8,709 nt of DNA, taken from NCBI GenBank assembly GCA_025935735.1, contig JAICUS010000232.1, positions 1-8,709 of the forward strand, read 5' to 3'. The notes beneath the pieces were generated by a model. It was not told where the DNA came from and made no database searches. It saw only the letters and a program-made list of their open reading frames with translations. A program made the translations under genes and the position numbers. Positions 1 to 8,709 of this stretch are shown here, piece by piece (within the stretch, counting starts at the first letter, position 1; each line of letters starts with the position of its first letter). This stretch comes from Solirubrobacteraceae bacterium. GTDB taxonomy: Bacteria > Actinomycetota > Thermoleophilia > Solirubrobacterales > Solirubrobacteraceae.

Positions 1-1
1 G

Positions 2-1849
2 CGGCTGCTCTCCGGCTTCGCGCGCTCGGCGGTCGAGCAGCGCGCGGCCGCGTTCGCCCCGGCGGCGCGCGCCCAAGGGGCGAGCGACAACCGCCGGTCG
101 CAGGCCAACGGCTGCCCGGTCGACCACGGCTCCAACGTGCGCCTCAACCAGGACTGCCTGAACCTCACCGACCCCGACCTCCAGGGCCGCGGCCAGGCGC
201 AGAACGAGACGGCGATCGCCCAGGACCCGAGCGACCCGGACCGGATGGTCGCGTCCTCGAACGACTACCGGCGCGGCGACGCCAACTGCTACACGTACTA
301 CTCCTCCGACGGCGGGCGCAACTGGCAGGACTCGACGCCGCCGATGGGCTTCACCCGCGGCACGGCGTTCGGCGGCGCGGCCCGCCAGTACTGGCAGGCC
401 GGCGGCGACACCTCGGTCGCCTTCGACACCGAGGGCAACGCCTACCTGGCCTGCCAGATGTTCATGCGCGGCGCCGGGGCGACGAACAACCCCGACCAGT
501 CGAGCGCGTTCTACGTCTTCCGCTCCACCGGCACCGGCGGCGCGTCGTGGAACTTCCCCGCGCGGCCGGTGGCCGAGCACGACGACGTGGCCGGCGCGGG
601 GGACACCCTGCTCGACAAGGAGTACCTGACCGTCGACGACAACCTGCGCAGCCCGTTCCGGGACCGCCTGTACGTCACCTGGACGCTGTTCGCCGCCGAC
701 GGCACCGCGTACATCTACGAGGCGTACTCGAGCGACCACGGCGAGAGCTTCAGCTCGCCCAAGCTCGTCAGCGCCACCAGCGCGCTGTGCACCAACACGC
801 AGGGCGGCCCGACGCCGCAGGGCACGTGCAACAGCAACCAGTTCTCGCAGCCGTTCACCGGCCCCGACGGCGCGCTCTACGTGGTCTGGGACAACTACAA
901 CCTGACCGGCGTGCGCCCGGGCGAGGGCGACGAGGGCGGCGGTGACGGCGGCGACGCGAGCCGCAACGCCGCGCCGGCCGCGGTCGACAACCGCGGCCAG
1001 GTCCTGCTGGCCAAGTCGACCGACGGCGGTAACACGTTCTCGGCGCCGGTCAAGGTGAGCGACTACTACGACCTGCCCGACTGCGTGACCTACCAGGGGG
1101 AGGACCCCGGCGTGGGCTGCGTGCCGGAGAAGGGGGAGACGCACGACTCGATCTTCCGCGCGGCCAACTACCCCGTCGGCGCCGTCAACCCGCGCGACCC
1201 GAGCGAGATCGACGTCACGGTCGCCAGCTACATCAACCGCCACTCCAACGAGACGCGGCGCAACCCCTGCGTCCCGCAGGGCTACAACCCGGACACGTTC
1301 CAGCCGCTCTACACCGGCGTCAAGACCCCGGGGGCGTGCAACAACGACATCGTGATCAGCCGTTCGGGCAACGGCGGGCGCTCGTTCACCGGCGGCTCGA
1401 GGGACGTGCGCACGCTGCCCGCCGCGCGCGACGGCGACAACCAGACCGACCAGTTCTGGCAGTGGGCGGCGTTCGACCGGCGGGGCCGCCTGGCCGTGTC
1501 GTTCTACGACCGCGCCTACGGCGACGACGAGCAGACGGGGTTCTCGGACCTCAGCCTGTCGGGCACGCGCGACGGGGTGAACTTCGGCACCACGCGCGTG
1601 ACCACGGCGTCGATGCCGCCCGAGAGCCAGTTCGAGGGCGACTTCTTCGGCGACTACAGCGGGCTGACGGCCGACGACGTGGCGCACCCGGCCTGGGCGG
1701 ACAGCCGCGACCCGGACCTGTTCGTGTGCCGCGACTCGGCCGGTCACGTCACTCAGCCGCCGAGCGTCTGCACCGCCGGGGCCGACAATGCCCCGTACGC
1801 CAACGACGAGAACGTGTTCACGGACGCGGTGGCGATCCCGCTGCGGTGA
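2..1849 (+). CDS. Secreted Asp-box (BNR/sialidase-fold) beta-propeller protein, 5' end outside the window
   Basis: The reading frame is open from the first complete codon at position 2, so the GTG at 137 is internal and the true start and any signal peptide lie off the left edge; 615 residues are visible. Asp-box repeats of the S-x-D-x-G-x-x-W/F type are seen as SSDGGRNW (302-325), SSDHGESF (728-751) and STDGGNTF (1016-1039). Degenerate copies are SGNGGRSF (1364-1387) and GTRDGVNF (1562-1585). Short strand motifs such as DGALYVVWDN and GRLAVSFYDR alternate with them, as expected for a propeller. The visible part has twelve cysteines, an even number that fits an exported, disulphide-bonded protein. 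A Gly/Asp/Glu-rich loop lies around 925-960. Such proteins are often labelled exo-alpha-sialidase, but I see no FRIP-type Arg motif and cannot place the Asp/Tyr/Arg catalytic triad, so sugar cleavage is unproven. The C-terminal GDYSGL and HPAWADSRD segments recur, from memory, in actinobacterial members of this group. Confidence 0.8.
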   Translation, partial: RLLSGFARSAVEQRAAAFAPAARAQGASDNRRSQANGCPVDHGSNVRLNQDCLNLTDPDLQGRGQAQNETAIAQDPSDPDRMVASSNDYRRGDANCYTYYSSDGGRNWQDSTPPMGFTRGTAFGGAARQYWQAGGDTSVAFDTEGNAYLACQMFMRGAGATNNPDQSSAFYVFRSTGTGGASWNFPARPVAEHDDVAGAGDTLLDKEYLTVDDNLRSPFRDRLYVTWTLFAADGTAYIYEAYSSDHGESFSSPKLVSATSALCTNTQGGPTPQGTCNSNQFSQPFTGPDGALYVVWDNYNLTGVRPGEGDEGGGDGGDASRNAAPAAVDNRGQVLLAKSTDGGNTFSAPVKVSDYYDLPDCVTYQGEDPGVGCVPEKGETHDSIFRAANYPVGAVNPRDPSEIDVTVASYINRHSNETRRNPCVPQGYNPDTFQPLYTGVKTPGACNNDIVISRSGNGGRSFTGGSRDVRTLPAARDGDNQTDQFWQWAAFDRRGRLAVSFYDRAYGDDEQTGFSDLSLSGTRDGVNFGTTRVTTASMPPESQFEGDFFGDYSGLTADDVAHPAWADSRDPDLFVCRDSAGHVTQPPSVCTAGADNAPYANDENVFTDAVAIPLR

Positions 1850-1857
1850 GCCGCGGC

Positions 1858-1894
1858 GGTCCGGGCGGCGGCGTGCGCCGCCGCCGCCCGGGCC
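1858..1894 (+). terminator. GC-rich hairpin, probable terminator of the Asp-box gene
   Basis: Bases 1861-1873 pair perfectly with 1879-1891 (13 bp) around a 5-nt loop. One G-U pair and two further G-C pairs extend the stem to 1858/1894. It begins 9 bases after the stop codon. No T-run follows, so it would be a U-less terminator of the kind proposed for high-GC actinobacteria, or a 3'-end stabiliser. Because it is symmetric it could also act on readthrough from the opposite strand. Confidence 0.6.
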
Positions 1895-1914
1895 ATGTCA
1901 CAGCGGCGCGAGAT

Positions 1915-1937
1915 GTGCAACTGATGCACTTGCAGTG
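1915..1937. promoter_or_regulatory. Operator-like cluster of overlapping dyads
   Basis: Three dyads overlap in 23 bases: GTGCA-ACTGA-TGCAC (1915-1929), TGCAA with TTGCA (1916-1920 and 1930-1934), and CACT-TGC-AGTG (1927-1937). The stretch is markedly less GC-rich than its surroundings and sits in a gap between genes. This is the look of a binding site for a small dimeric regulator (MarR, PadR or TetR type). The regulator and the controlled gene are unknown. The only rightward candidate is the weak ORF starting at 1935, which overlaps the site. Confidence 0.35.
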
Positions 1938-2114
1938 AGGAACTTCGACGCGCTCGGCCGGCGGCTCTCCGCCCGGCGGCGGGCGGACGCCCCGCTCCGC
2001 GCCGCGGCGGCGCCGCCTCCGCGCCGGCGGCCGATGTCGCGGCGGCTCGCGCGCTTCGTCGACGGGTTCGCGGCCGAGCTGTCGGCGGCGGCGCGGCGTT
2101 CCCGGCGGCGCTGA
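1935..2114 (+). CDS. Doubtful small Arg-rich ORF (59 residues)
   Basis: A GTG at 1935 opens a frame of 59 residues ending at the TGA at 2112-2114, two bases before the end of the convergent DUF5996 gene. The product would be very basic, starting VRNFDALGRRLSARRR and ending in RRSRRR, with one plausible amphipathic stretch (LARFVDGFAAELSAAARR). I see no Shine-Dalgarno sequence, and the start lies inside an operator-like dyad cluster, so translation would have to be leaderless. In DNA this GC-rich, open frames of this length arise by chance and Arg-rich composition is typical of such false frames. It could also be the tail of a lost regulator gene. I do not recognise a family. It is listed only because the 1850-2116 gap otherwise holds no gene. 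Confidence 0.2.
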   Translation: MRNFDALGRRLSARRRADAPLRAAAAPPPRRRPMSRRLARFVDGFAAELSAAARRSRRR

Positions 2115-2116
2115 GG

Positions 2117-3034
2117 TCAGGTCACCGGCGGCGGGTCGCCCTCGGCGCTGGCCAGCAGCGGCGGGTCCCACTCGCACACCGTGCAGGCGTGGCGGAACGC
2201 GGAGCGCGCGAAGGTGAGCGCCGCCGCGCCGGGATCCGGGCTCGCGACCACGTCATCCCAGTCGAGCACGTACTCGCCCAGCGCGCCGTCCCAGCGCGCG
2301 GCGTCCGGCTCCAGGCGCGCCTCCTGGAAGTCGTCGCGCGGCGGGTGGGTGTAGGCGTAGAACGCGGGCCGGTCGTAGCGGCCGTCGCCCGGCCACCAGC
2401 CGACGGCCACCTCCTGCGCGTCCATCGCGTTGCGCATGATGAAGTCGTCCGACGGCGGGGCGGCGGGCTCGCCGGAGAAGAGGTTCACCGCCAGGTCGAA
2501 CGAGCCCCACCAGGCGTTGACCGGCGTCGAGCGGCCGCGGTAGGGCGCGCGGAACGCCGCCAGTGCGAGCGCCGCCCGGGTGGCCGCGGCGAAGTAGCGC
2601 TCCACCTGGGTCTCGTCGTAGCGGGCGTGCTCGGAGTCCTCGTCGAGCGCGACGGTCCAGGCGACCTCCTGCGGCGTGGGGTCGATCTCCACCGGCCCGG
2701 CCAGCTCGCGCACGGCGGCGAGCACGTCGCGGGTCACGTCGCCCACCGCCCGGTGCGGGGTCAGCGCCACCTTGTGCCGCCCGCCGGCGCTGTGCTCGGC
2801 GACCGCCACGTGCCGGTGCAGGTCGAGCACGAGCGCGAACGCGCCCGATCCATCCGGCGCCGGCAGCGGCGGCGTCTCCCAGCCGCGCGCGGTCAGCCGC
2901 AGCGCCGCGTGCTGCAGCTGCGGCTCGGGAGGCGCGTAGACGGCGGCGAGCTTGCCCAGCACCTGCGTGTGCGCGTGCAGCGTGTCGCACGTCTCCCGCC
3001 AGCTCGCATAGGTGCCGAGCGCCGGCCAGCTCAT
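2117..3034 (-). CDS. DUF5996 family protein
   Basis: This 305-residue protein has the layout I associate with DUF5996. An N-terminal W-x-x-T-x-x-T-L-H-x-x-T-Q segment (residues about 12-25) is followed by LTARGW (47-52), a central GRSTPV...WWGSFDLAV block (about 167-183), FSG (186-188), and a C-terminal half rich in Trp and acidic residues (for example VGWWPGDG and FYAYTHPP). The biochemical role of the family is not known to me, and no classical catalytic motif or signal peptide is visible, so it is probably cytosolic. I chose the ATG at 3034, which gives MSWPAL as in the usual family start. A GTG three codons upstream at 3043 is also possible. An AGGG purine stretch lies about 9 nt before the ATG. 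The gene stands alone. It runs convergent to the weak ORF on its left and divergent from the broken transporter on its right, with a perfect palindrome at 3045-3058 immediately upstream. Confidence 0.85.
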   Translation of the reverse strand: MSWPALGTYASWRETCDTLHAHTQVLGKLAAVYAPPEPQLQHAALRLTARGWETPPLPAPDGSGAFALVLDLHRHVAVAEHSAGGRHKVALTPHRAVGDVTRDVLAAVRELAGPVEIDPTPQEVAWTVALDEDSEHARYDETQVERYFAAATRAALALAAFRAPYRGRSTPVNAWWGSFDLAVNLFSGEPAAPPSDDFIMRNAMDAQEVAVGWWPGDGRYDRPAFYAYTHPPRDDFQEARLEPDAARWDGALGEYVLDWDDVVASPDPGAAALTFARSAFRHACTVCEWDPPLLASAEGDPPPVT

Positions 3035-3044
3035 GGCGCGCACC

Positions 3045-3058
3045 CTACCGGCCGGTAG
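3045..3058. promoter_or_regulatory. Perfect 14-bp palindrome CTACCGGCCGGTAG, probable operator
   Basis: The sequence equals its own reverse complement and lies 10 bases upstream of the DUF5996 ATG and 36 bases before the surviving part of the broken transporter. ACCGG/CCGGT-type palindromes are common operators for TetR-family repressors of DHA2 pumps in actinobacteria. A repressor bound here would sit over the leader of the leftward gene. No regulator gene is present in the window, so this is inferred from symmetry and context only. Confidence 0.4.
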
Positions 3059-3093
3059 CGCTCGGCGCCGGTTCGAAAGGGGGTGTCTCGTCG

Positions 3094-3990
3094 GGGGACA
3101 TCCGCGGGCGCCGCCGCATGTTCGTGACCGGGCTGCTGGGGTTCAGCGCGGCGTCCGCGCTGTGCGGCGCGGCGCCCACGATCGGCGTGCTGATCGCCGC
3201 GCGCGCCCTGCTCGGGCTGGCCTGGCGCTCGGTGTTCCTGGTCAACGTGCCGGTCGGGCTGGCCGCCGCCGTCGCCGCGCTGCGGGTGCTGCCGGCGGAC
3301 CGGCCGGAGGCGGGCACGCGGCTCGACCTGGGCGGCGTGGGGCTGCTCGTGGCGGCGCTGGCGCTGCTCGCCGTGCCGCTGCTGGAGGGCCGCAGCGCCG
3401 GCTGGCCGGCCTGGGCGTTCGCCTCGCTCGTCCTCGCCGTGCCGGCCTGGGCCGCCTTCGCCGCCTACGAGCGCCGTGTCGACGCGCGCGGCGGCGCGGC
3501 GCTCGTGCCGCCGCGGCTGTTCCGCAACCGCAGCTTCGCCGGCGGCATCCCGATCGCGCTGCTGTTCATGCTCTCCTACGCCGGCTTCCTGCTGCTGCTG
3601 GCGATCTACCTGCAGGCCGGGCTGCACTTCTCGCCGCTGCACGCCGGCGCCGTCTACACGCCCTCGGCCGTGGGCTTCTTCCTCGCCTCGCTGGCCGCGC
3701 CGCGGCTCGTGCCGCTGCTCGGCCGCCACGTGCTCACGGTCGGCTACGTCGTGGCGGCCCTCGGGCTGCTCGGCGCCGCGGGCACGGTGGCCGCGGCCGG
3801 CGCCGAGCTCAGCGGCTGGGAGCTCGGGCCGACCCTGTTCGTGGCCGGCATCGGCCAGGGCCTGGGGCTGAGCCCGCTGGTCGGGACGATCATCTCCGGC
3901 CTGGCGCCCGAGGAGGCGGGCTCGGGCGCCGGCGTGGTCACGACGACGCTGCAGGCCGGCAACGTCCTCGGCGTGGGGCTCGGCGGCCTG
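3094..3990 (+). pseudogene. Decayed DHA2 (EmrB/QacA-type) MFS transporter
   Basis: Frame-1 translation shows about 300 residues of clear DHA2 character without a full protein. Similarity starts abruptly in the motif A loop (GDIRGRRRMF, 3094-3123), so helices 1-2 are missing. Helix 3 and the motif B equivalent (ARALLGLA) are then joined directly to WRSVFLVNVPVG. In the intact pump at 6522 about 50 residues separate the same two points, covering the rest of helix 4, helix 5 and antiporter motif C. The remainder follows in order: helices 7-8, the PPRLFRNRSF loop, and helices 9-13, ending near VGLGGLGGG. After that the frame loses hydrophobicity and helix 14 is absent. There is no in-frame stop, but stops are rare at this GC content, so that does not argue for function. 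An ATG at 3118 could start a product, but it would lack essential parts. An unrelated short fragment may occupy 3991-4133. Confidence 0.75.
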
Positions 3991-4133
3991 GGCGGCGGCC
4001 CAGCCGGGCAGGCGCTCGATGAGCGTGCTGCCGCAGGTGACCCGGATGACCACGGGCCGCGCGCCCGCGGACCCGGAGTTCGCCGCGGCGTGGGAGGCGT
4101 TCCTGCGCGAGGTGGGCGCGCGGCTGGGGCCGG

Positions 4134-4403
4134 TCAGCGGCCGGCCATCACCGCCTGCGTCTGGGCCGACGTGGTGACCGGCACGATCTCGAACCGCGTG
4201 AGGTCGGTCCAGCCGGCGATCCACTCCTGCAGCCGCGCCGCATCGTCGCACTCCATGACCTGGAAGCAGCCGCTCAGGTCGGCGCGCACCCAGCTGTCGA
4301 CGTAGCGCAGACCGTCCGGCAGCGAGCGCCCGCCCTCGCGGACGCGCGCGTAGATGTCCGCGACCGCGTCGTCGCGGAAGCGCTCGATGACCATGAAGAG
4401 CAT
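4134..4403 (-). CDS. DUF3303 family small protein
   Basis: This 89-residue protein opens MLFMVIERF and contains GLRYVDSWV, CFQVMECDD and LQEWIAGWTDL, then a V-P-V-x-T segment. This pattern matches small DUF3303 proteins, whose compact ferredoxin-like alpha/beta fold resembles that of monooxygenase-type dimeric proteins. No enzymatic function is established that I know of, and no membrane segment is seen. The ATG at 4403 follows the stop of the second Ku gene after only 12 nt on the same strand, so it is probably the fourth gene of the Ku operon. No strong Shine-Dalgarno sequence is visible in the gap, which again suggests translation linked to the upstream gene. Whether it has anything to do with DNA repair is unknown, since DUF3303 genes are widespread in unrelated contexts and it may simply be a passenger. 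I see no clear terminator beyond its stop. Confidence 0.8.
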   Translation of the reverse strand: MLFMVIERFRDDAVADIYARVREGGRSLPDGLRYVDSWVRADLSGCFQVMECDDAARLQEWIAGWTDLTRFEIVPVTTSAQTQAVMAGR

Positions 4404-4415
4404 CGCCGCACTCTG

Positions 4416-5222
4416 TCATGCGGGGGTCTTGCGCTTGCCGTCCTTGATCTCGGCCAGCGTCTGCTCCAGCGCGGCCATCAGGTCGGGCACGGGAGAGGTG
4501 TCGTCCTCGCGCTCGGGCGCCTTGACCGTCTCGCCCTTCTCCTTGCGCTTGATCACGCGCTTCAGGCGCTGCTGGTAGCGGTCCTTGTAGCGGGAGGGGT
4601 CCCAGTCGCAGGCCAGCGCCTCGATCACCGCCACGGCCTGGTCGACCTGCTTCTTGGACGGCTTGGCCTTCTTGGTCGGCGTGGGGACGGCCTTGGTCTC
4701 GCGCACCTCGTCGTGGAAGCGCAGCGTGGTCAGCACGAGCCGCTCGTCGCGCTCGCGGATCAGCACGAGGTACTCCTTGGTGCGCATGACGAAGCGGCCG
4801 AGCGCGGCGCCCTCGGACTTCGCCATGACCTCCAGCAGCAGCCGGTAGGCGCGCTGGGTGCCCTCGCTGTCGCCGGCCGGCATGAGGATGTAGGGGTGGT
4901 CGAAGTAGATCGGATCGACGTCCTGGAGGTCGACGAACGCCTCGATGTCGATCGTCCGCGTCTTGCGCGGCGCGGCCGTGGCCAGCTCGGCGTCGGTGAG
5001 CACGACCTGGTCGCCGTCGTCGGTCTCGAAGCCGTGGCCGATCTCGTCGTAGCCGACCTCCGTGTCCTCCTCCTTGCAGAACCGCCGCGTCTCGACGGGC
5101 GTGTGATCGGAGTCATGGAGCTGGCGGAAGTGCACGTCGGTGTCCTTGACGCCGCTGAACAGCTGCACGGGCACGTTGACGAGCCCGAACGACAGCGAGC
5201 CGGTCCAGATCGAGCGGGGCAT
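4416..5222 (-). CDS. ku: Ku protein, paralogue 2 (non-homologous end joining)
   Basis: This is a 268-residue bacterial Ku, the homodimeric or heterodimeric ring that threads onto DNA ends and recruits LigD. It opens with the Ku signature RSIWTGSLSFGLVNVPVQLF (residues 3-22) and continues with YDEIGHGFE (58-66), DVDPIYF, and RFVMRTKEYLVLIRER. The C-terminal arm reads DWDPSRYKDRYQQRLKRVI, then PDLMAALEQTLA and a basic tail, KDGKRKTPA. Cys49 stands where many Ku proteins have the first cysteine of a CxxC pair, but the second position is Glu52. A Lys-rich linker (KKAKPSKKQ) precedes the C-terminal helices. The ATG at 5222 shares one base with the TGA of the upstream ku gene (TGATG), a mark of translational coupling, and gives the family's normal N-terminus. 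Paralogue 1 lacks the basic tail, and such tails bind DNA in other bacterial Ku proteins. LigD is not in the window. Confidence 0.95.
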   Translation of the reverse strand: MPRSIWTGSLSFGLVNVPVQLFSGVKDTDVHFRQLHDSDHTPVETRRFCKEEDTEVGYDEIGHGFETDDGDQVVLTDAELATAAPRKTRTIDIEAFVDLQDVDPIYFDHPYILMPAGDSEGTQRAYRLLLEVMAKSEGAALGRFVMRTKEYLVLIRERDERLVLTTLRFHDEVRETKAVPTPTKKAKPSKKQVDQAVAVIEALACDWDPSRYKDRYQQRLKRVIKRKEKGETVKAPEREDDTSPVPDLMAALEQTLAEIKDGKRKTPA

Positions 5223-5986
5223 CAGGCGAGGCTCGCCTCCAGCGCGGCCATCAGGTCGTCCGGCTGCGCCTCCTCGGGCTCCTCGGGCGCCTCGATCTGC
5301 TTGCCGGACGCCTTGCGCTCGATCAGCTTCTCCACCTCGCGCCGGTGCTCGTCCGCGTAGTCGCTCGGGTCGAAGTCGGTGTGCAGCCCCTTCACGAGCT
5401 TGCCGGCCATGTCGATCTCCTTCTTGCCCGGGTTGCGGCTCACGCGCGGGAGCTTCAGCGAGCCCGGGTCGACGAGGTCGGCGGCGAAGCGCATCGTGTG
5501 CAGCGCCAGCACGTCCGCGAGCGGCCGGACGATCACCGTGCGCTCGCGGTTGTGGAACACCCAGCGGCCGACGCCGGCGCGGCCGGAGCGCTCCAGCGCC
5601 GCGGCCAGCAGCGCATAGGCGTCCTTGCCGTCGTCGCCCGCGCCCAGGTAGTAGGTGCGCTCGTAGAACACCGGGTCGATCTCGTCGGCCGGCACGAAGT
5701 GGTCGACCTCGAGCAGCCGGGTCTGCGCGCCCGCGGCCGCGGCGATCTCGTCGTCGGTCAGCTCGACCCACTCGCCCTTGCGGACCTCGAAGCCCTTGAC
5801 GATGTGGTCGTAGTCGACCTCCTTGTCGTCGTTGGGGCAGATCCGCCGGTGCTCGATCCGGCTGCCGTCCTCCAGGTGCACCTCGTGGAAGTGCACGGTC
5901 TTGGACTCGGTGGCCGTGTAGACCTTGACGGGCACGCGGATGAGCCCGAAGGAGATGGTGCCGTTCCACAGCGAGCGGGGAGCCAT
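5222..5986 (-). CDS. ku: Ku protein, paralogue 1 (non-homologous end joining)
   Basis: This 254-residue Ku has the signature RSLWNGTISFGLIRVPVKVY (residues 4-23), then YDHIVKGFEV, ADEIDPVFYERTYYL, and the core helix KEIDMAGKLVKGL followed by DFDPSDYADEHRREVEKLI. It ends in DDLMAALEASLA, the conserved minimal C-terminus thought to contact LigD, with no Lys-rich extension. Cys50 is present, but the second cysteine of the usual CxxC pair is Asp53. It is closer in pattern to the canonical M. tuberculosis-type Ku (which, from memory, keeps the CxxC pair) than paralogue 2 is. The two differ at most positions, so the duplication is old. The ATG at 5986 overlaps the stop of the 164-residue gene by one base (TGATG), and its own stop overlaps the next ku start in the same way. 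No Shine-Dalgarno sequence precedes the ATG, which fits coupling. The open frame runs further upstream, but only this start gives a normal Ku N-terminus. Confidence 0.95.
   Translation of the reverse strand: MAPRSLWNGTISFGLIRVPVKVYTATESKTVHFHEVHLEDGSRIEHRRICPNDDKEVDYDHIVKGFEVRKGEWVELTDDEIAAAAGAQTRLLEVDHFVPADEIDPVFYERTYYLGAGDDGKDAYALLAAALERSGRAGVGRWVFHNRERTVIVRPLADVLALHTMRFAADLVDPGSLKLPRVSRNPGKKEIDMAGKLVKGLHTDFDPSDYADEHRREVEKLIERKASGKQIEAPEEPEEAQPDDLMAALEASLA
5224..5238. repeat. 15-bp near-perfect palindrome at the ku-ku junction
   Basis: AGGCGAG-G-CTCGCCT has 7-base arms around one central base. It covers the last codons of ku paralogue 1 and ends one base before the start codon of paralogue 2. 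On the message, a 5-bp stem with a 5-nt loop could form just ahead of the coupled start. It may equally be a by-product of the codons for the conserved EASLA tail. Confidence 0.5.
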
Positions 5987-6480
5987 CACGCGCGCCCGAA
6001 GGTCTCGGCCGCGGCCTGGGTGCGCAGCTCGCCGAGGCGCTCGAGCTGGGAGCGCGCGCGGTCGGCCAGCTCGCCGAAGTCGATGTCGGCGAGCCGCGGG
6101 TCGCCGCCCCGGGTCTCGGACAGCGAAACCCAGAGAGAGAGTTTGCCAGTGACCCCGAGAATCAGTGACTCGATCTCCTCCAGGCGGCCGAGCGCGTGGC
6201 GGTCGAGCAGCCAGGGCAGCGGCAGCACGCGGCGCGCCTTCTCCACCCCCCACCCGGCGAGCATCCGCAGGTGGTCGCGGCCCATCTCGAGACGGTCCAT
6301 GACCTCCTGGAGCGTGTCGCGGTCGGCCGCGATCTCGCCGGCGATCTCGGCCATCTCGGCGCCGTAGCCGTTGCCCTCGTTGTCGCGCGCGATGCGCCGC
6401 GCGAGGTCGAGCCCGGCGGTCGCGCCGGCCAGGTGGTCGTTGAGGTAGGTGGAAAGTCGATCCCCGTTGAGCAGCAGCAC
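5986..6480 (-). CDS. Uncharacterised helical protein, first gene of the Ku operon
   Basis: This 164-residue protein is not one I can assign to a named family. It looks entirely alpha-helical, with amphipathic stretches at about 8-33, 38-65, 68-87, 92-121 and 134-162. Heptad-like Leu/Ala/Ile patterns suggest a helical bundle. The stretch EEIESLILGVTGKLSLWVSL (101-120) is the most hydrophobic but too polar for a clear membrane helix. There is no signal peptide, no cysteine, and no di-iron E-x-x-H motif. The frame opens at a GTG at 6480 preceded by GAGGAG with about 4 nt spacing; this is short, but the best site available. Its TGA overlaps the ATG of ku paralogue 1 by one base, so it is made from the same message and probably in fixed ratio with Ku. 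An accessory role in end joining is inferred from this coupling alone. An unrelated housekeeping role is equally possible. Confidence 0.75.
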   Translation of the reverse strand: MLLLNGDRLSTYLNDHLAGATAGLDLARRIARDNEGNGYGAEMAEIAGEIAADRDTLQEVMDRLEMGRDHLRMLAGWGVEKARRVLPLPWLLDRHALGRLEEIESLILGVTGKLSLWVSLSETRGGDPRLADIDFGELADRARSQLERLGELRTQAAAETFGRA

Positions 6481-6521
6481 GAGGCTCCTCTACCCGCGCC
6501 CGGGCTTCTAGGCTTCATCGC
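6481..6521. promoter_or_regulatory. 41-bp divergent control region between the Ku operon and the efflux pump
   Basis: Two genes start outwards from this gap, so both promoters must lie in it or reach into the flanking coding sequence. It contains GAGGCTCCTC (6481-6490, which gives the GAGGAG ribosome site on the minus strand) and the palindrome GCCCGGGC (6498-6505). TAGGCT at 6510-6515 is a possible -10 element for the rightward gene. If so, the efflux message would be nearly leaderless, in keeping with the absence of a Shine-Dalgarno sequence before 6522. No confident -35 element is seen. Confidence 0.45.
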
Positions 6522-8033
6522 ATGGCGACGACGCAGCAGGAGAACACCGGAGCGGGACTCGACCGCGAGGTGATGCTCGTCGCGACGGTGGTCGTGCTCG
6601 GCGCGATCATGTCGATCCTCGACGTGACGGTCGTCAACGTGGCGATCAACACGCTCGCGAAGGAGTTCAAGACCACCCTGCCGACGATCCAGTGGGTGGC
6701 CACCGGCTACACGCTGGCGCTGGCCACGGTGATCCCGCTGACCGGCTGGGCGGCGGACCGGTTCGGCACCAAGCGGCTGTACATGATCTCGCTGGTCCTG
6801 TTCGCCTGCGGCTCGGCGCTGTCCGGGCTCGCCTGGTCGGCCGAGTCGCTGATCGCCTTCCGCGTCCTGCAGGGCTTCGGCGGCGGCATGATCATGCCGG
6901 CGGGCATGACGATCCTCACCCGCGCCGCCGGCACCGACCGGGTCGGCCGCGTGATGGCGATCATCGGCGTGCCGATGCTGCTGGGTCCGATCTGCGGGCC
7001 GATCCTCGGCGGCTGGCTGATCACCTCGTTCTCCTGGCGCTGGATCTTCTTCATCAACCTGCCGATCGCCGTCGCGGCGGTCACCGCGGCCTGGCGGATC
7101 CTGCCGCGCGACGTGTCCAAGCACGACGAGCGGCTCGACGTGCTGGGCTTCCTGCTGCTCTCGCCCAGCCTCGCCGCGATCATCTACGGGCTGGCCGAGT
7201 CCGGCTCCTCCGGCGGCTTCGGCACGGCCAAGGTGATCGTCCCGATCGTCTGCGGCGCGATCGTCCTGACGCTGTTCGTCTTCCACGAGCTGCGCGCGAC
7301 GCAGCCGCTGATCGACCTGCGGCTGTATCTGAATCGCATCTTCACGGTCTCGTCGATCACGCTGGTCCTGCTGGTGGTCAGCGTCTTCGGCGGCATGCTG
7401 CTGCTGCCGCTGTACCTGCAGGTGGTGCGCGGCGAGTCGGCGATGGACACCGGCCTGCTGCTCGCGCCGCAGGGGTTCGGGGCGATGCTCTCGATGCCGA
7501 TCGCCGGCCGGCTGACCGACCGCACCGGGGTGGGCAAGATCGTGCCGTTCGGCCTCGTCCTGGTCGGGCTCTCGTTCCTGGCGCTGACCCAGCTGTCGGC
7601 CGACACGTCCTACGTGTGGTTCGGCGTCGTGCTGTGGGTGATGGGCCTCGGGATGGGCGCGACGATGATGCCCACGTTCTCCGGGGCGATGCAGACGCTG
7701 CGCCAGTCCGACGTCGCGCGGGCGAGCACGACGCTGAACATCCAGCAGCAGGTGGGCGCGTCGATCGGCACCGCCGTGCTCAGCGTGCTGCTGGCCAACG
7801 CGATCTCCTCGCGCCTCGGCGGCCACGGCGGCATCGGCGGCGCCACCGCGGCGGTCCCGCCGGGGCAGCGGGCGGCGGTCATGGAGAAGCTGGCGGACGC
7901 GTTCGGCCACACCTACTGGTGGGCGCTCGCGCTGGTCATCGTGGCGTTCTGCGTGGCCACGCCGCTGCTGCCCAAACGCAAGCCGGCGCCGGTCGGCGAC
8001 GCGTCCGACGCGCCGCCCATGCTCATGGGCTGA
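6522..8033 (+). CDS. DHA2 family (EmrB/QacA-type) MFS drug efflux transporter
   Basis: This intact 503-residue inner-membrane protein has about 14 hydrophobic segments. Such proteins are proton antiporters exporting drugs or other small hydrophobic compounds. The hallmarks appear in order: LDVTVVNVAI in helix 1 (33-42), motif A GWAADRFGTKR (75-85), motif B RVLQGFGGG (114-122), and antiporter motif C GPICGPILGG (155-164). WRWIFFINLPI opens helix 6, and PLIDLRLYLNRIF lies between helices 8 and 9. Helix 13 (NIQQQVGASIGTAVLSVLL) is followed by an outside loop, helix 14, and a short cytoplasmic tail. The substrate cannot be told from sequence. The ATG at 6522 places a normal short N-terminal tail before helix 1. 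No Shine-Dalgarno sequence is visible. The gene diverges from the Ku operon and its stop overlaps the cupin start (TGATG). It offers a same-family internal reference for the broken copy at 3094-3990. Confidence 0.93.
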   Translation: MATTQQENTGAGLDREVMLVATVVVLGAIMSILDVTVVNVAINTLAKEFKTTLPTIQWVATGYTLALATVIPLTGWAADRFGTKRLYMISLVLFACGSALSGLAWSAESLIAFRVLQGFGGGMIMPAGMTILTRAAGTDRVGRVMAIIGVPMLLGPICGPILGGWLITSFSWRWIFFINLPIAVAAVTAAWRILPRDVSKHDERLDVLGFLLLSPSLAAIIYGLAESGSSGGFGTAKVIVPIVCGAIVLTLFVFHELRATQPLIDLRLYLNRIFTVSSITLVLLVVSVFGGMLLLPLYLQVVRGESAMDTGLLLAPQGFGAMLSMPIAGRLTDRTGVGKIVPFGLVLVGLSFLALTQLSADTSYVWFGVVLWVMGLGMGATMMPTFSGAMQTLRQSDVARASTTLNIQQQVGASIGTAVLSVLLANAISSRLGGHGGIGGATAAVPPGQRAAVMEKLADAFGHTYWWALALVIVAFCVATPLLPKRKPAPVGDASDAPPMLMG

Positions 8034-8410
8034 TGCGGCTGCGGCGGCTGCCGGCCGAGCCGGACGCGGTCGCGCCCGACGGCTCGGCGGTGCGCGTGCT
8101 GCTCGCGCTGGGCGGCGGGAGCATGGCGCACTTCGAGCTGGCGGCCGGGCAGACCTCCCTGGCGGTCCGCCACCGCACGGTCGAGGAGCTCTGGTACTTC
8201 GTCGGCGGCCGCGGAGAGATGTGGCGGCGCGACGCTGGCGGGCGCGAGGCGGTCGACGCGGTCGAGCCGGGCGTCAGCCTCGACATCCCGCTGGGCACGA
8301 GCTTCCAGTTCCGCGCGCTGGGCACCGAGCCGCTGCGCGCGGTCGGCGTGACCATGCCGCCATGGCCGGGGGAGGACGAGGCGGAGCTCGTGGACGGCCC
8401 CTGGAGCTAG
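8033..8410 (+). CDS. Cupin-fold protein with incomplete metal site
   Basis: This 125-residue single-domain cupin is coupled to the efflux gene, since its ATG shares the A of the upstream TGA. Cupin motif 1, G-x5-H-x-H-x3-E-x6-G, aligns to G39-G58. His47 and Glu51 are kept, but the first His is Val45. Motif 2, G-x5-P-x-G-x2-H-x3-N, aligns to G80, P86 and G88, with Phe91 in place of His and Ala95 in place of Asn. Two of the four usual metal ligands are therefore gone. The protein may be non-metal, use other ligands, or act by binding a small molecule. The phrase EELWYFVGGRGEMWRRD is typical of small actinobacterial cupins of unknown substrate. The coupling suggests it handles or senses the compound exported by the pump, but this is inference. 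No signal peptide is seen, so it is probably cytosolic. The stop is TAG at 8408-8410. Confidence 0.85.
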   Translation: MRLRRLPAEPDAVAPDGSAVRVLLALGGGSMAHFELAAGQTSLAVRHRTVEELWYFVGGRGEMWRRDAGGREAVDAVEPGVSLDIPLGTSFQFRALGTEPLRAVGVTMPPWPGEDEAELVDGPWS

Positions 8411-8430
8411 GCGGGAGCCCGGATCGCGGT

Positions 8431-8498
8431 GCGCAGATGGGTGTCCTGCGCCGTGCGGGGCCCGGCGAACGGCCGGCTGGGTAGGCCGGCGGTCGGGC
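8431..8498 (+). terminator. Clustered GC hairpins after the pump-cupin operon, candidate terminator
   Basis: GCGCAG (8431-8436) pairs with CTGCGC (8446-8451). GCCGGC (8472-8477) pairs with GCCGGC (8485-8490) across a 7-nt loop, and outer arms GCCCG (8460-8464) and CGGGC (8494-8498) could enclose it. Two T residues follow. These stems are short, GC-rich DNA forms them easily, and there is no T-run, so the call is tentative. Position after the last gene of a two-gene unit is the main support. Confidence 0.35.
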
Positions 8499-8568
8499 TT
8501 GGGTCGATCTCGAGGGTCGGGTATGGGCGTTTTGCCCGCAGCATCACGAGATTCGATCAGTACCGCGC

Positions 8569-8623
8569 ACCGCGACGATGCACCCCTTTCACGTGTGTGC
8601 ACTAAGTCGCGGTATACGCGACT
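8569..8623. repeat. Interlocking inverted repeats (two mutually exclusive hairpins)
   Basis: ACCGCGAC (8569-8576) is the reverse complement of GTCGCGGT (8606-8613). Nested inside, TGCAC (8579-8583) pairs with GTGCA (8597-8601). The same right arm takes part in a second dyad, AGTCGCG (8605-8611) with CGCGACT (8617-8623), around the loop GTATA. TACCGCG (8561-8567) could also pair with CGCGGTA (8609-8615). Sharing of one arm between alternative stems resembles attenuators and riboswitch expression platforms. As DNA, the 19-bp element at 8605-8623 could instead be an operator. Confidence 0.5.
8588..8618 (+). promoter_or_regulatory. Weak promoter-like pair of hexamers
   Basis: TTCACG (8588-8593) and TATACG (8613-8618) are 19 bp apart and resemble -35 and -10 boxes facing right. 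The -10-like box lies in the loop of the 8605-8623 dyad, so a protein bound to that dyad would block it. The spacing is longer than ideal and the -35 match is poor. Confidence 0.25.
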
Positions 8624-8709
8624 GAAGTGACTCAACCGGAATAGTCGGGATTGGCGATCGATCACCCGACCCGCCCGGCCGCCAGGAGGGACCACCGCCC
8701 TACCCAGCC

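Follow-up and report, generated by a model that had tools for sequence, protein, structure and literature searches.

Why does a gene for an unnamed helical protein stand at the head of a pair of ku genes? The question is raised by a contig from a Solirubrobacteraceae bacterium (assembly GCA_025935735.1, contig JAICUS010000232.1), of which positions 1 to 8,709 (8,709 nt) are called the window below. According to the list of open reading frames (ORFs) and the sequence of the window, its minus strand carries a head-to-tail array of four genes, in which a 164-residue protein (h164) is followed by two Ku proteins and a DUF3303 protein. The explanation favoured here, considered probable though well short of certain, is a general-stress operon whose promoter serves both a ferritin-like stress protein and an old Ku pair. 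Because its relatives elsewhere show no tie to Ku, h164 is regarded as a companion gene that probably shares the stress switch of the Ku pair, and not as a Ku partner. The features concerned are as follows.

6510..6513, minus strand: -35-like box GCCT, fitting the loose GNNT and not GTTT; 14 nt from the -10-like box
6490..6495, minus strand: -10-like box GGGTAG of sigma-B/SigF type, starting 15 nt upstream of the h164 GTG
5986..6480, minus strand: h164, 164 aa, GTG start; unnamed family, with a ferritin-like helical bundle as the modelled fold
5222..5986, minus strand: ku1, 254 aa, first gene of the old tandem Ku pair; TIGR02772 at 276.6 bits, in the clade of first genes
4416..5222, minus strand: ku2, 268 aa, second gene of the pair; TIGR02772 at 278.9 bits, in the clade of second genes
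4134..4403, minus strand: DUF3303 protein, 89 aa, ATG start; PF11746 at 107.7 bits

The array and its tandem Ku genes

The gene order, the two one-base TGATG overlaps (h164/ku1 at 5986, ku1/ku2 at 5222) and the gap of 12 nt between the ku2 stop codon and the ATG of the DUF3303 gene, all given in a preliminary description of this DNA, were borne out in the sequence; overlaps of 1 nt are common in bacterial operons. What stood of the operon proposed there is that two Ku paralogues lie in an operon-like array with the gene of an unnamed helical protein at its head; the part assigned to h164, that of a dedicated structural partner of Ku, did not stand. Ku1 and Ku2 both scored above the TIGR02772 cut-off of 150 bits, as full bacterial Ku, and also exceeded the PF02735 cut-off of Pfam, and the DUF3303 protein passed the gathering cut-off of PF11746 (21.2 bits). 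LigD was not recognised among the window proteins scanned against the family libraries.

The spacing between ku1 and ku2 was -8 to +4 nt in 21/21 loci measured (the window and 20 relatives, two near-identical, with start codons picked by script), and the 1-nt overlap was identical to that of the window in 9 of the 21. This junction is conserved beyond chance. Neither h164 nor DUF3303 was found in the Ku regions of the 20 relatives (tblastn, E 1e-3), and the h164-ku1 and ku2-DUF3303 junctions occurred, among the loci compared, in the window only. The coupling of h164 to ku1 is therefore a single example.

A ku1 match was present in 171 of 232 genomes of the order that holds genome G002, a count for which, as for those of h164 in this order and its class given below, only some first-look candidates were scored in many genomes, so that weak relatives may be missed. 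A ku2-type gene directly followed ku1 in all 30 loci that surround the best ku1 matches (L137-L166). A tree built from 75 Ku proteins placed the 30 first genes in one clade (support 99/98) and the 30 second genes in another (100/99); 15 solo Ku proteins fell outside both pair clades, one of them as a poorly supported (83/44) long branch next to the first genes. The strict ku1-ku2 order and the two clades led to the conclusion that the pair is an old duplication kept together, and they suggest a Ku1-Ku2 heterodimer, a candidate two-subunit bacterial Ku. At locus L186 the second Ku (308 aa) has an extra C-terminal tail, which to the eye looks similar to a SAP-like helix pair.

In the literature, one Ku is reported for 84% of end-joining bacteria and two to eight for the remainder (PMC7719229), and for Streptomyces ambofaciens, with three Ku proteins, heterodimers were speculated upon (PMC5124664). 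The present case resembles such multi-Ku bacteria in having several Ku per genome, both window proteins being above the family cut-offs, and differs from them in the tandem placement of the genes in 30/30 loci, in the two sister-type clades and in the additional solo Ku of some genomes.

A promoter-like box before ku1 and h164

The sequence GCCT-N14-GGGTAG (6513-6490) ahead of h164 recurs in part before the ku genes of relatives. GGGTA was located 14-18 nt before a candidate start codon in 27/30 tandem-first ku genes, 0/30 second ku genes and 7/14 solo ku genes, as against 10 of 224 other ORFs in the Ku regions concerned (ku genes excluded). Boxed ku genes were found within L137-L186, with the box just before ku1, and also at L081, L086, L087, L089, L090, L092 and L206; the ku1 of the window itself has no such box and is one of the three misses among the 30. 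The distance from GGGTA to the start codon peaked at 15 and 16 nt. At a further 12-16 nt upstream, GNNT was present in 16 of the 27 boxed ku1 genes (mean of shuffled sequences 6.75; 0/1000 shuffles as high). The window has GCCT in place of a strict -35 GTTT at 12-19 nt, and the relatives have GTTN in 4/27. GGGTA also precedes sigma factor genes of the SigB/SigF/SigG families. Taken together, the box points to control of end joining by a sigma-B/SigF-type factor in this order.

Two reports bear on this assignment: SigF promoters of Mycobacterium smegmatis read GTTT-N14-19-GGGTA, and several genes have the box 8-11 positions from their start codon (PMC4694148), and a looser GNNT -35 is given for SigB, SigL and SigM of Streptomyces coelicolor (PMC8346170). 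The boxes described here share with these the -10 GGGTA, the short leader (M. smegmatis SigF) and the loose GNNT (S. coelicolor), and differ in their -35, the classical GTTT being rare before ku1 and missing in the window. A ku-ligD locus under the general-stress factor EcfG is described for Sphingopyxis (PMC7083833). In the titles, abstract openings and paper passages surveyed, those from PMC11936186 and PMC3184153 included, no description of a strict tandem Ku pair or of a sigma-B-type promoter on it was found, which is no proof of its being unpublished.

At h164, the box preceded 11/78 relatives compared with 20/675 other ORFs in the loci from named genomes (Fisher p 1e-4), while no excess was present in the sample from the order (5/38 h164 relatives vs 25/223 other ORFs). 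Membership of h164 in the same regulon is plausible on this basis. The presence of the promoter-like sequence before h164 makes co-expression with the ku genes more likely. According to the mechanism proposed, a sigma-B/SigF-type promoter at GCCT-N14-GGGTAG would drive h164-ku1-ku2, and perhaps the DUF3303 gene too, from a nearly leaderless mRNA. The first slot of the operon would be variable, most relatives having such a promoter directly before ku1; since h164 lies between box and ku1, it would have been placed behind the Ku promoter or have brought a similar one along. h164 would be made along with Ku under stress but would not belong to the Ku ring as a dedicated component. Ku1 and Ku2 would probably form the heterodimer that holds the DNA ends, and LigD would be encoded at another locus.

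At the two other box-less ku1 loci, too, another gene stands directly before ku1. At L159 this is a PRC-barrel gene (2263-2835, minus strand), which has a GGGTA box of its own and ends 3 nt before the ku1 start; at L165, a frame (107-1492, plus strand) whose product has LigD polymerase and ligase C-terminal domains ends 5 nt before ku1, and a GGGTA box was not found in the stretch examined. Elsewhere the box lies in the gap before ku1, and the products of the genes ahead of it include an AsnC regulator (L176, scanned), a HAD-like protein (L167, by eye) and a nitroreductase (scanned at L168, similar by eye at other loci). Unrelated genes have thus ended up between box and ku1 or farther upstream.

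A divergent gene for a major facilitator superfamily (MFS) transporter occupies 6522-8033, so that merely 41 nt (6481-6521) separate its start from that of h164, and two promoters must crowd or overlap there. On the plus strand, a frame at about 3075-4100 (within the ORF 2563-4305) resembles by eye a partial MFS transporter with segments missing.

Genomic context and fold of h164

In a search of named genomes, 475 stretches were found to encode h164 relatives, of which the best 80 were kept with flanks of up to 8 kb, many of them shorter; these included Streptomyces, Amycolatopsis, Frankia, Myxococcus, Truepera and Thermoleophilia. Neither Ku (tblastn with ku1 and ku2 of the window) nor DUF3303 (tblastn) was found in the flanks of any of the 80, and a search with a ligase protein gave a ligase at one locus (L004). 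A h164 relative was present in 62/232 genomes of the order and 64/399 of its class, with a best identity of 53% among these order and class relatives. Genomes with a fetched tandem Ku locus contained h164 in 10/30 cases against 62/232 overall (Fisher p 0.38); within the order, h164 does not track the tandem Ku. Among the matches listed, compared by eye, a single h164 relative (genome G217) lies on one contig with a Ku gene, at a distance of about 9 kb. The homologues of h164 thus lie mostly away from ku genes, which speaks against the dedicated Ku partner of the preliminary description; as a partner across bacteria, it is rejected on genomic context. The linkage of h164 to ku is accordingly local to the lineage of the window, since none of the 80 relatives had Ku in its flanks and no co-occurrence was seen.

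Metagenomic homologues paired by equal-sized contigs gave 6 h164-ku1 pairs against 4.0 expected (P 0.22) and 2 h164-ku2 pairs against 4.0. For ku1-ku2, the positive control, 14 pairs were counted where 4.7 were expected. No conserved neighbour of h164 stood out with a crude gene caller, which lost h164 itself in 20/100 loci. A viral origin of h164 was rejected, as no relative was confirmed on viral contigs; eight plasmid records carry distant relatives. In genome G004 (loci L198 and L004), a gene for an ATP-dependent, ligase-only DNA ligase with a GGGTA box (L198, 9715-10656, minus strand) lies about 2.3 kb from a h164 relative, and in G217 (L206) both Ku and a ligase lie about 9 kb from one. 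By a rough estimate, the closeness of ligases to h164 in these two genomes was judged to be near chance.

The statement that h164 has no recognisable catalytic motif held true for the family libraries and needs qualification for the fold. A named family was rejected for h164, none being found in NCBIfam or Pfam: there was no NCBIfam match, the sole Pfam match was far under its cut-off (11.5 vs 26 bits), and a sequence search of the PDB returned nothing (best E 0.26). The predicted structure, in turn, is a ferritin-like bundle with YciE as its nearest match, and h164 may accordingly be a ferritin-like stress protein, YciE/YciF-like in fold. The corresponding family PF05974 (DUF892) gave no Pfam match to h164 at E 1; in a profile comparison, P was 0.0023 at a probability of 12.7%, and 0.14 with fewer sequences, which makes homology to DUF892 suggestive only. 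With regard to the di-iron ligands of the ferritin-like superfamily, E49, D53, E102, E104 and H16 are invariant in the h164 family (residues read from the sequence alignment). Helix D, however, has no conserved acid (by eye, on the alignment), and the helix A and helix D glutamates of DUF892 are not conserved in h164 (by eye, alignments), which, together with the lack of a Pfam match and the low profile probability, sets h164 apart from YciE/YciF.

Competing explanations and significance

Beside the shared stress operon, h164 could be an accessory protein that, in this lineage only, binds the Ku pair and is translation-coupled to match the amount of Ku. The one-base overlap and the shared message would suit this, and the exception at L165 places a LigD-type gene, a true end-joining partner, in the same slot. 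The metagenomic pair P0016/P0125 may also be linked, yet the overall pairing was not above chance. With none of the 80 relatives near Ku, no co-occurrence with the tandem Ku, an unrelated PRC-barrel gene in the slot at L159, and genome G199, which has the closest ku1 among the matches listed (69%), not among the 62 genomes with a h164 relative, such an accessory protein is considered improbable. Equally improbable, or slightly more so, is a wider version, in which a stress-sigma-driven end-joining module contains an obligate two-subunit Ku and the first-slot gene (h164, PRC-barrel or LigD-type) is a swappable Ku accessory factor, h164 being its ferritin-like form. Somewhat better placed, though still unlikely, is a chance neighbour, brought in ahead of ku1 by a rearrangement and transcribed by read-through from the shared promoter, with no function in stress or repair: the h164-ku1 layout is present in the window only and the genes before ku1 vary between nitroreductase, AsnC regulator and HAD-like protein, but the 15-nt spacing of the box suits h164 itself, and in the named-genome set h164 relatives are boxed more often than other ORFs.

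That GGGTA is another signal near start codons, for translation or for protein binding, and not a promoter element, would explain its fixed short distance from them and a -35 box that is loosely conserved only. GNNT is, however, enriched at promoter spacing, the box precedes sigma genes of the SigB/SigF/SigG families, and several genes in the M. smegmatis SigF table have GGGTA at positions 8-11 from their start codon (PMC4694148), so that this last explanation appears very unlikely.

The comparison of first slots cautions that a gene at the head of a Ku operon is not necessarily a partner of Ku. With their strict pairing, the Ku genes make a clear and testable case for a two-subunit Ku, where bacterial Ku is usually treated as a homodimer. 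If the proposed control is true, end joining would join the sigma-B/SigF-type general stress response in this order, and repair proteins would be made together with other stress proteins.
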